The position numbers and the translations under genes were made by a program. Below are positions 3,279 through 35,020 of a stretch of 45,928 nucleotides of DNA, piece after piece; position 1 is the stretch's first letter; each line of letters opens with the position of its first letter. Source of the DNA: a virus; the IMG/VR virus record IMGVR_UViG_3300036760_000512, positions 1-45,928 of that record; one strand, given 5' to 3'. Below the pieces are notes generated by a model. It was given only the letters and a program-made list of their open reading frames with translations, was not told where the DNA came from and did no database searches.

Positions 3279-3390
3279 GCGAGTCTTGCTTCCGCACCGA
3301 TGCTGAATGGCGAGCGTGACTCGCCCGGTCTCTGTTCTTTCTTGCCTCACGTAGTTGCAGTTGCTTTTGCTTTTGCTTTTGCAGTTGCTG
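3279..3390 (+). repeat. Dispersed structured repeat, copy A
   Basis: One of three homologous intergenic elements. In the transcribed direction it has GCGAGTC (3279-3285) pairing with GACTCGC (3318-3324), an alternative hairpin GGCGAG/CTCGCC (3309-3325), the conserved loop word TGCTGAATGG, the conserved CTGTTCTTTCTTGCC, then CGTAG and six TTGCNN hexamers (3355-3390). The next start codon (3421) lies 30 nt downstream. The T-rich tail after the hairpin would allow terminator or attenuator activity. This copy has no adjoining NTTKCA dyad. Confidence 0.8.
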
Positions 3391-3420
3391 TTCCACCTCG
3401 CCCACAATCCTGGAGTAACG

Positions 3421-3669
3421 ATGACCCCGCAGATTACGAATGGTGTAGCACGCAATGAGATGGCAGCGCATCTTGCACTCCATCACGGCATCGGAACGTA
3501 CTTGAGATCCGGTGAACTGCTCAATCCACACTGGACAATCGTCGCAATGACAGCTGCTGTCGCCAGGCGGACTGGTGTGAAGTACCAGCGTGGCTTCAAT
3601 GGACTCAAGGTTGCATTTGCTGACCTTGATGCACTTATCAATGCGCTTCGTGCGCAGGAGCCACAGTGA
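3421..3669 (+). CDS. Small hypothetical protein downstream of element A
   Basis: An 82-residue protein. ATG 3421 is preceded by GGAG (3412-3415). The frame is also open through the hexamer tract, where a TTG start would add a leucine-rich leader, but the ribosome site supports 3421. The protein is mixed alpha/beta with no recognised domain; a central stretch (HWTIVAMTAAVARRTGVKY) may be a helix-turn-helix, weakly. The GTGA overlap with the next gene starts a new coupled series. Confidence 0.7.
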   Translation: MTPQITNGVARNEMAAHLALHHGIGTYLRSGELLNPHWTIVAMTAAVARRTGVKYQRGFNGLKVAFADLDALINALRAQEPQ

Positions 3670-4133
3670 CCCCCACGCGCCCCACCGAGCCGACGATGAC
3701 GGCGGGGGATGTGAAGCAGGCTACTGACGCACTCGTCGGCGGGCGTGGCCTCACGCATGACGCCGGTTTCTACGAACGCATCCTCGCCACTTACGCCGCC
3801 CTCCGTGCCCGTGTCGCGCAGGGGGAGAAGCGGATACGCTGGCCGAAGATGAAGCGCGATCTTGCGTGGTTACGTCGGTGTGCGGACGACTCGGATGGCC
3901 CAACGCAGACCAGTGCATCGGCCAAGCGCGTGATTGCCGCCCTCTCTGCCCCCGCCGCCACACCAGAGACGGACACGGAGTGCCTGAAGTGCGAAGACGG
4001 TGCAATCGAGTATCTCATTGACGGGAGCGCGAGTAAGACGGCGCGCACGTTCTGTTCTTGCCCGCGCGGTGTGGAACTGCGGGCCAGTTACCATAAGGCC
4101 CTTGAAGCGAAGGGCGAGGAGCGCGCACGATGA
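3666..4133 (+). CDS. Hypothetical protein with Cys-rich C-terminal half
   Basis: A 155-residue protein with a GTG start overlapping the previous stop (GTGA); ATG 3696 is a possible alternative start. The N-terminal half is helical and basic (FYERILATYAALRARV). The C-terminal part holds ECLKCEDG and later CSCPRG, a likely zinc ribbon. Its helical motif resembles one in the gene at 5171, hinting at shared ancestry. It ends in an ATGA overlap. Function unknown. Confidence 0.75.
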   Translation: MTPTRPTEPTMTAGDVKQATDALVGGRGLTHDAGFYERILATYAALRARVAQGEKRIRWPKMKRDLAWLRRCADDSDGPTQTSASAKRVIAALSAPAATPETDTECLKCEDGAIEYLIDGSASKTARTFCSCPRGVELRASYHKALEAKGEERAR

Positions 4134-4480
4134 CCGATAAGATGGCACCCGAAATGGAACGCACCCTCCGCGCGCTGTACCCGAAGGCGATGAGGTGGCG
4201 TGTGCAGGATGCGGAGAAGAACGTAGAACGGAACGCGGCGGTGCTCGCTGAGCTTGAACTGATGACCTCGGACGCCGACACCGAAGAGGCCGCGCAATGC
4301 GACAAACGATGGCACCCTTGGGCGATGCGGCAGGCGAGTGTTTGCCACGGCGGCAACGCCACGGAGACTGTTGCCTCTGCTCTCGCTTGGGCGCGTGGCA
4401 TTGTAGACGGGAAGCGTGCGTCGCGACCACTTACCACCCCGTCCCCCACCACGAGCGAGGGAACGCAGGATGCCGACTAA
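4130..4480 (+). CDS. Hypothetical helical protein
   Basis: A 116-residue protein, ATG in ATGA overlap with the upstream stop. It is highly helical and charged at the N-terminal side (MERTLRALYPKAMRWRVQDA) with a Ser/Thr/Pro-rich low-complexity tail. No family is recognised. The end overlaps the next gene by 11 bases. Confidence 0.7.
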   Translation: MTDKMAPEMERTLRALYPKAMRWRVQDAEKNVERNAAVLAELELMTSDADTEEAAQCDKRWHPWAMRQASVCHGGNATETVASALAWARGIVDGKRASRPLTTPSPTTSEGTQDAD

Positions 4481-34066: not shown

Positions 34067-34531
34067 CTAGACCTCCTGAAGCATGTGAGTGTCCTGTTCA
34101 CTTGACATCTGATTCCCAAGTTCATCAAACATCGAGAACGTCCAGCCTTCCTGCATCATCGCTACGTTGTCCTCGTCGTGCATGGTCAACGCATCTTCAG
34201 ACTGCATCTCGTACGAACGACTCTCGGAGTACATTCCCTGGCCCGCGGAGATGGAGTGCTCAGACCACATCGTCCCCTGCTCACCTGCCATATCCACGCC
34301 AGCTTCATCCCACATTGCAGCATTCGCTTCTGTCAACATGGAAAGAACGTACTCCGACAGCATATCCGTACCGAACTCATCCAGCATCGTCGGGTCTGAC
34401 CCAACTTCATCATCCATCTCGTTGCCAGCCTCGTCAAGCATCAGCTGGCTGAAATGCTCTGCTGGTGGTCGCGTCCCCTCGTCTACCAACTCGCGCCGTC
34501 GGCGTCGAGTAGCTCCACCGAAGTCTTTCAT
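34067..34531 (-). CDS. Met/Glu octad-repeat protein
   Basis: A 154-residue acidic protein. After a basic head (GGATRRRRRELVDE), residues 31-154 are about fifteen imperfect eight-residue repeats: Met at 31, 39, 49, 57, 65, 73, 81, 88, 100, 109, 117, 125, 134, 142 and 150. Glu stands three residues after every one of those Met, so M-x-x-E is invariant in all fifteen units. The third position is usually Asp or Ser (MLDE, MWDE, MYSE, MFDE). This is the signature of a small beta-solenoid or zipper; I know no named family. ATG directly follows the TAA of the gene before, in the late operon downstream of the capsid gene. Confidence 0.75.
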   Translation of the reverse strand: MKDFGGATRRRRRELVDEGTRPPAEHFSQLMLDEAGNEMDDEVGSDPTMLDEFGTDMLSEYVLSMLTEANAAMWDEAGVDMAGEQGTMWSEHSISAGQGMYSESRSYEMQSEDALTMHDEDNVAMMQEGWTFSMFDELGNQMSSEQDTHMLQEV

Positions 34532-34849
34532 TTAGCCCTCGATGAATTCGATGGCCCCTGGGCAAGATGCAACAGTCGCGTCCGTGCGCCGTGCGCGAAC
34601 AGCGTAGTATGCAGGAATATCTGACCATGCGGTGACACTTGGACCCTGGACTTGGGAAACATTTGCCTGTGCTTCAGGATCGTACAGACCAATGGAAATC
34701 CACTCGTCTGCGTATCCATTCACTTCCACAACCACAACTGCAGCAGGGTCAGCTGCAGCCCCGAGCGTGACCTGAACCGCACCATTACGGTATCGGGGCA
34801 GGTTGATTTGGCAGGTTGCATCCTGCGTTGAAAGATTAAAGCTCGGCAC
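34532..34849 (-). CDS. Small beta-rich virion protein downstream of element C
   Basis: A 105-residue protein. GTG 34849 is 7 nt after GAGG; the frame is open far upstream (through the hexamer tract into the capsid gene), but that part is shadow. The sequence (VTLGAAADPAAVVVVEVNGY, AWSDIPAYYAVRARRTD) is a compact beta sandwich-like pattern. Possibly a head-completion or decoration protein; no family recognised. Confidence 0.65.
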   Translation of the reverse strand: MPSFNLSTQDATCQINLPRYRNGAVQVTLGAAADPAAVVVVEVNGYADEWISIGLYDPEAQANVSQVQGPSVTAWSDIPAYYAVRARRTDATVASCPGAIEFIEG

Positions 34850-34881
34850 GTGTGATCCTCGGAAACCTACGGTTGGATGCA

Positions 34882-35020
34882 CAACAGCAACAGCAACAGC
34901 AACAGCAACAGCAACAGCAACTACGTGAGGCGGAAAGAACAGAGTAGGAGCGAGTCCGGCGCGCCATTCAGCATTCGCTCGGACGCCAGACCCTGCATTT
35001 TTCATCGTGCAAGACACAGG
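34882..35020 (-). repeat. Dispersed structured repeat, copy C
   Basis: Third copy of the element. On the - strand: dyad copy 6, core with loop word TGCTGAATGG, CTGTTCTTTC, then CGTAG and six CTGTTG hexamers (34882-34917). The heptamer stem of copies A/B is replaced by GAGCGA (34948-34953) pairing TCGCTC (34975-34980), i.e. a different stem at nearly the same place. The start codon at 34849 lies 32 nt after the tract (30 nt in copy A). It follows the major capsid gene. Confidence 0.8.
34999..35013 (-). promoter_or_regulatory. Dyad element copy 6 (TTTTCATCGTGCAAG)
   Basis: NTTKCA-N3-TGMAAG dyad at the 5' side of element C (transcribed direction), flanked by GACCCTG...CAGGGTC arms that make a longer imperfect hairpin just after the capsid stop codon. 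Confidence 0.7.

Follow-up and report, generated by a model that had tools for sequence, protein, structure and literature searches.

Three homologous structured elements at gene 3′ ends of a podovirus-like genome, possibly acting as terminators or partial attenuators

Genome Organization and Location of the Three Copies

The window analyzed here is the whole 45,928-nt record IMGVR_UViG_3300036760_000512, in which a 127-bp terminal overlap indicates a circular genome of 45,801 bp. This compact, podovirus-like, 45.8-kb genome of an uncultivated virus of bacteria consists of a rightward early arm and a leftward late arm (Table 1). A colinear relative, IMGVR_UViG_3300049070_000149 (49.8 kb, hereafter G693), was located via alignments of the portal and capsid proteins, and key proteins of the two genomes are 59–75% identical (capsid 75%, portal about 60%, polymerase 59%). 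G693 and one fragment (L009) were the sole matches in the IMG/VR alignment scans; of the single-protein scans with the capsid and the terminase, one returned nothing and the other returned this fragment.

Three regions between genes contain homologous non-coding elements, A, B, and C, each of roughly 150 bases. They lie where the original prediction had placed them, and their homology was established by blastn, by alignment of the cores, and by a covariance model. With A as the query, blastn found C with 82% identity (E 1.8e-25) and B with 77% identity (E 1.4e-17). The 76-nt cores, taken without the tract, gave local alignment scores of 59, 70, and 48 (shuffle mean about 14.6, sd 2.5, max 31, n = 2000), and the covariance model scored the three copies in the window at 95, 93, and 87 bits, the next match reaching 13 bits. 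The gaps that the copies fill (181, 195, and 190 nt) are among the largest of the genome; according to a hand-made gene list, few others reach that size (5886–6089 and the divergent region 43801–45291/1–300). The copies are indeed roughly a third of the circle apart, as had been noticed (about 15.0, 16.6, and 14.2 kb of 45,801), a regularity that carries no weight with n = 3.

Table 1. Positions in the window of the three copies, their parts, and neighboring features.
Feature	Position	Strand or direction	Remarks
Early genes	1–18232	rightward	exonuclease, annealing protein, SSB, ParB/methyltransferase, DNA polymerase, primase
Late genes	18428 to about 43800	leftward	SU10-type portal and adaptor, capsid, terminase
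Copy A	3240–3420	+	whole gap from DUF932-like gene 2124–3239 (+) to ORF 3421–3669 (+); homology to B and C
A, hairpin P2	3279–3324	+	arms 3279–3291/3312–3324; loop TGAATGG 3304–3310
A, TGTTCTTTC then GCCTCACGTAG	3333–3354	+	TGTTCTTTC 3333–3341, exactly 8 nt 3′ of P2; GCCTCACGTAG 3344–3354
A, hexanucleotide tract (TTGCNN)	3355–3392	+	about 6.5 units
Copy B	18233–18427	−	whole gap between convergent genes 16991–18232 (+, DNA primase) and 18428–18901 (−, last late-operon gene)
B, hairpin P2	18320–18365	−	arms 18365–18353/18332–18320; TGAATGG 18340–18334
B, TGTTCTTTC and GCCGAGCGTAG	18290–18311	−	TGTTCTTTC 18311–18303
B, hexanucleotide tract then CACTCGCCCAC	18244–18289	−	about 8 units; CACTCGCCCAC common to A
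Strong hairpin beside B	18389–18424		better T-rich tail on + strand (GGGGCGT TTACTACTTT)
Copy C	34850–35039	−	whole gap from major capsid gene 35040–35954 (−) to ORF 34532–34849 (−, GTG start)
C, hairpin P2	34950–34994	−	34993–34983 paired with 34960–34950; TGAATGG 34970–34964
C, TGTTCTTTC and GCCTCACGTAG	34921–34941	−	TGTTCTTTC 34941–34933
C, hexanucleotide tract (TTGCTG)	34882–34920	−	about 6.7 perfect units
Dyad at 5′ edge of B	18361–18389	+	one of eight
Dyad at 5′ edge of C	34991–35019	−	one of eight
Dyads outside the copies	264–292, 7473–7501, 13023–13051, 27113–27141, 40338–40366, 45257–45285		gene junctions; profile scan

Structure of the Element

Read as RNA from 5′ to 3′, the element consists of the hairpin P2, a spacer of exactly 8 nt, the pyrimidine-rich word TGTTCTTTC, the motif GCCnnnCGTAG, and a (TTGCNN)n tract of 6.5 to 8 units. 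The 13-pair hairpin, its loop TGAATGG, and all of the parts that follow are kept in A, B, and C, and the sequence 3′ of the tract is CTCGCCCAC-like in both A and B. Some words listed in the original prediction as common to all three copies proved to be less widely shared: CTACGTGAGGC is present in A and C only, B having CTACGCTCGGC, and CCATTCAGCAT is likewise found in A and C, B carrying a 1-nt insertion (CCATTCAGGCAT).

In the three-copy alignment, 92% of the cells of the P2 stem are paired, compared with at most 47% in slid controls, and P2 is the best of the 1225 possible 13-pair helices; the shared stem is thus longer than the 7 bp first described. The hairpin surpasses its shuffled versions by only 1.2 to 3 sd. 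Two pairs are changed on both sides (UA/CG/GC and UG/GC) and six cells are G-U. The covariation of P2 is supportive rather than proof, because shuffling of the 3′ partners matched the observed level in 31 of 500 trials with only three sequences. The conserved structure suggested earlier is backed by this 13-pair stem, present in all three copies with its two compensated pairs and several G-U pairs, and comparison of the copies supports the view that the element is a structured cis element. An alternative stem had been proposed for C: an upstream competitor stem is real, but the homologous stem is kept there as well (GGGUCUGGCGU/GCGCCGGACUC, 11 pairs). A pairing between loop and tail (GAAUGG/CUGUUC, computed at −3.6 kcal/mol) is also possible in the folding model, and rests on invariant letters.

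Two other types of element were considered for the locus. No Rfam match indicated a self-cleaving ribozyme at A or C: among 4227 families, only Twister-P5 reached its gathering score, elsewhere in the window, and the matches at A and C were at chance level. A small coding gene (..LCSFLPHVVAVA..) was rejected as well; its frame is broken by indels, C being one base short (TTTCCGCC vs. TTTCTTGCC) and B having an extra base by TGAATGG, and no single open frame runs through all copies. The Type-P5 twister ribozyme itself (Rfam RF02684, 50.4 bits vs. a cut-off of 37.6) lies at 1998–2050 (+), directly upstream of the gene 2124–3239, whose 3′ side carries copy A; it was not found within the parts of G693 that were read. 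The lower arm of P2 contains GCGAGTC/GACTCGC, of which 32 sites occur genome-wide where 8 are expected from base composition, and GCGAGT is the most over-represented hexamer of the whole genome.

Search for Further Copies

Searches of the window, IMG/VR, phages, plasmids, and sampled bacterial genomes revealed no fourth copy, and G693 has none of the three copies, the element being absent everywhere that was read. Four DNA patterns of the exact or degenerate core yielded nothing related in IMG/VR, and only tract-only or chance matches to the core were obtained in phages, plasmids, and 398 Pseudomonadota genomes. The same was true of 48 genomes from the order of a tract-bearing genome, and the element was not found in 297 genomes from the family of a Stenotrophomonas-like genome. 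A host-derived repeat, expected in Xanthomonadaceae, was accordingly rejected, since none was present in the 297 family, 398 Pseudomonadota, and 48 order genomes. Five pattern matches in the genome collections were due to chance, mostly in mreB-like genes, and a 25-nt match in one contig (L020) was apparently also a chance match, within an msrB-like coding gene. The only match of the covariance model in bacterial genomes (G134) was discarded as a relative of the phage element, being what we take to be a Pseudomonas-type REP pair. The proposal of a new family thus found no support, as nothing beyond the present genome was detected in any collection searched.

G693 has a tract-bearing repeat of its own: a GCTTGCGTCCTGCGGGCTGTTGCAGTTGCAGTTGCAGTT-type sequence with a GTTGCAG tract is found at L050:15646–15690 and L051:4380–4417, with about 39 identical bases. 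These 39-nt repeats read in frame as TATATATARRTQA-like linkers.

A similar layout was observed in several Pseudomonadota genomes, in which a TTGCNN/TTTTGC tract lies a few bases behind a 7–8 bp hairpin at gene 3′ ends; we found no published name for this arrangement. In a small, hand-filtered sample of tract sites, a stem of at least 7 bp was scored just upstream in seven of nine cases and downstream in three of nine, and a gene preceded the tract on the T-rich strand in eight of the nine cases readable from the ORF maps. The bacterial sites share with the phage element the hairpin, the few bases after it, the T-rich hexanucleotide tract, and the orientation to the upstream gene. However, their hairpins are different, they lack TGAATGG, TGTTCTTTC, and CGTAG, and they have no sequence homology to the phage core.

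Position of the Copies and Possible Function

All three copies lie directly 3′ of a same-strand stop codon, A behind the DUF932-like gene, B at the end of the late operon, and C behind the major capsid gene. Only A and C precede a gene in their own sense; transcription through B would continue antisense into the primase gene. Because B lacks a downstream gene and all copies follow a stop codon, a leader function cannot be their common role, whereas a 3′-end role can.

Our preferred reading, held tentatively and with somewhat less than even confidence, is that A, B, and C are a phage-specific 3′-end element working as a terminator or partial attenuator. The nascent RNA element would stop or thin transcription, acting as an end-of-operon terminator at B and as a partial terminator (attenuator) at C, behind the major capsid gene, and at A, behind an early gene. 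RNA polymerase would pause after P2 and be released over the U-rich stretch and the tract, perhaps with the aid of a host or phage factor, the U-run being imperfect. Terminators are often located 3′ of the major capsid gene, as is Tφ of T7. B is located where the leftward late operon must end, and it may be the natural leftward stop, because the strong hairpin beside it carries the better of its T-tails in the rightward direction. At the same convergent junction, G693 has a symmetric A/T-flanked hairpin and no element. The 3′-end position and the bacterial parallels would fit termination or attenuation.

Like Rho-independent terminators, the element has a GC-rich hairpin followed by a U-rich stretch on the same strand, and it lies immediately behind genes, among them the major capsid gene and the last gene of an operon. 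It differs from them by the 8-nt spacer between P2 and TGTTCTTTC, an interrupted T-run, long invariant motifs in loop and tail, and the hexanucleotide tract, and a terminator scan called neither A nor C. Because the canonical rule of a stem with an immediate U-run is not followed, the element may be said to work like a terminator rather than to be one. The conservation of TGAATGG, CTGTTCTTTC, and CGTAGTTGC also goes beyond what a plain terminator needs, which counts against this reading.

In a bolder version, which we consider unlikely, the element would be the first representative of a class of phage RNAs. Its conserved hairpin, with loop (TGAATGG) and tail (CTGTTCTTTC) both fixed and perhaps base-paired to one another, would modify RNA polymerase or release it at selected 3′ ends of genes; at two copies, this would be under the control of a genome-wide regulator binding to the adjoining dyad. 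If the preferred reading is right, one home-made cassette placed at several gene ends would set relative expression, for example of the capsid vs. the downstream structural genes, and the hairpin-plus-hexanucleotide layout would have a parallel in repeats of unexplained role that some bacteria carry behind their genes.

The main rival to a 3′-end element is a dispersing repeat, that is, a MITE- or REP-like passenger with a slippage-prone tract that spread to harmless gaps and whose structure was kept for copying. We regard it as possible, if rather unlikely. Since the colinear G693 lacks all three copies, their gain or loss is recent in evolutionary terms, and tract units do spread in this lineage, because the tract-bearing GCTTGCGTCCTGCGGGCTGTTGCAGTTGCAGTTGCAGTT is identical in two unrelated genes of G693. 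Against this, the orientation to the upstream gene is identical in all three copies, and the 77–82% identity is arranged in blocks, with invariant motifs and a compensated stem, and is not even as in decay. At C, neither a target duplication nor an empty site with matching flanks was found, and no transposase, RAYT, or other mobilizer was recognized among the proteins scanned. The element shares with Stenotrophomonas (SMAG) and Pseudomonas REPs the character of dispersed intergenic imperfect palindromes, and SMAG-like hairpins with adjoining hexanucleotide tracts (L027) resemble it further, but it occurs in three copies only and its GTAG lies 26 nt after P2, not at the foot of the palindrome.

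The function first proposed, a 5′-leader RNA that attenuates the following gene or controls its translation, appears quite unlikely. The part of that proposal concerning a structured cis element stands, but the role as a leader is weakened by B, which has no same-strand gene downstream and faces a convergent one. The distance from the tract to the start codon had been put at 30–32 nt for A and C; it measures 28 nt at A and 32 nt at C, with a plausible ribosome site in each case, and B has no such gene. Upstream arms also compete for the P2 arms in A and C. Against this, the genes 3′ of A and C, of 82 and 105 aa, respectively, belong to no family and have no evident relation, and no conserved gene is served by the element, the genes after C being absent from G693. 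Indeed, the window genes 34849–32660 have no clear counterpart in G693, whose capsid gene has a ribosome site and a further gene no more than about 20 nt behind it; judging from this comparison, copy C is at the head of a variable gene stretch.

A Nus-loading or processive antitermination site of the nut, put, or rrn-leader type is similarly improbable. The hairpin would be boxB-like, TGTTCTTTC would be boxA, and the U-rich tract would lie behind them, in line with the order hairpin-boxA-U-rich of rrn leaders. TGTTCTTTC is invariant and presumably resembles the known boxA sequences TGCTCTTTA and TGTTCTTTG, and three of the four occurrences of TGTTCTTT in the genome are in the copies. The resemblance is, however, one of 8 letters, and the operon places are wrong for sites that act early in an operon: B follows the last gene, with nothing downstream to serve, and A and C are about 3 kb and 10 kb inside the arms, not near a promoter. 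No N-like protein was recognized.

Finally, the element could be a double-stranded DNA site whose TTGCNN units are bound by proteins, with a role in replication, segregation, packaging, or regulator binding. Such a site would suit the three well-spaced copies on the circle, the iterated hexamers, and the dyads included in B and C, but is very unlikely given that the stem varies by compensated pairs with several G-U pairs, as an RNA would, that the orientation to the upstream gene is kept, and that A has no dyad.

Dyad Sites and Other Features of the Genome

Separate from the A/B/C family, eight imperfect palindromes of about 29 bp, with a consensus of about CTTGATCTTKCACGWTGMAAGATCAAGG, were found in the window. 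In a profile scan, the weakest of the eight scored 25.8 and the best other site 14.4, opposite-strand readings of the same sites being left aside. G693 has seven such dyads (CAGGTTGTTTCACWATGAAACGACCTG), the arm sequence being specific to each genome, and at least four of them are in matching inter-gene intervals (window positions 7480, 13030, 18368, and 40347). At several window dyads, the stop codon of the upstream gene lies in the left arm and the ribosome site of the next gene in or just after the right arm. Differences in one half-site are often uncompensated in the other, and the dyads therefore seem better suited to be protein-bound DNA operators than RNA hairpins. They are likely the sites of a putative co-evolving regulator and, although a side finding, a stronger one than the A/B/C element: their presence in matching intervals of two diverged phages, with a consensus changed in concert in each genome, points to a putative trans-acting regulator.

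In B and C, about 4 nt at the foot of P2 also belong to the right arm of the dyad. As a speculation, a site-specific factor bound there could make the proposed release step switchable at these two copies, A having no dyad. Short motifs repeated at intergenic sites across a phage genome, as the dyads in B and C are, have been described for the SPBRE sites of SPbeta, which are bound by MrpR (PMC10516654), and for the stoperators of cluster A mycobacteriophages (PMC9283540). The stoperators are asymmetric 13-mers, whereas the window dyads are symmetric and of about 29 bp, and their regulator is putative; the A/B/C element itself is not of the same kind as either system.

Several other features were noted. 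An HNH endonuclease gene (7518–8114) comes directly after a dyad and overlaps a match to a sigma-70-like promoter (TTGACT-17-TATATT). Duplicated segments are present at 33054–33631 and 35970–36592: one of 179 nt at 78% inside a 468-aa late gene, and one of 140 nt at 70% in the adjacent genes 35970–36440 and 36453–36917, which are apparent paralogues. The divergent non-coding region contains a 145-nt inverted repeat (73%; 45556–45700/45726–45870) with TCCA/ATGG runs, which is a candidate origin.
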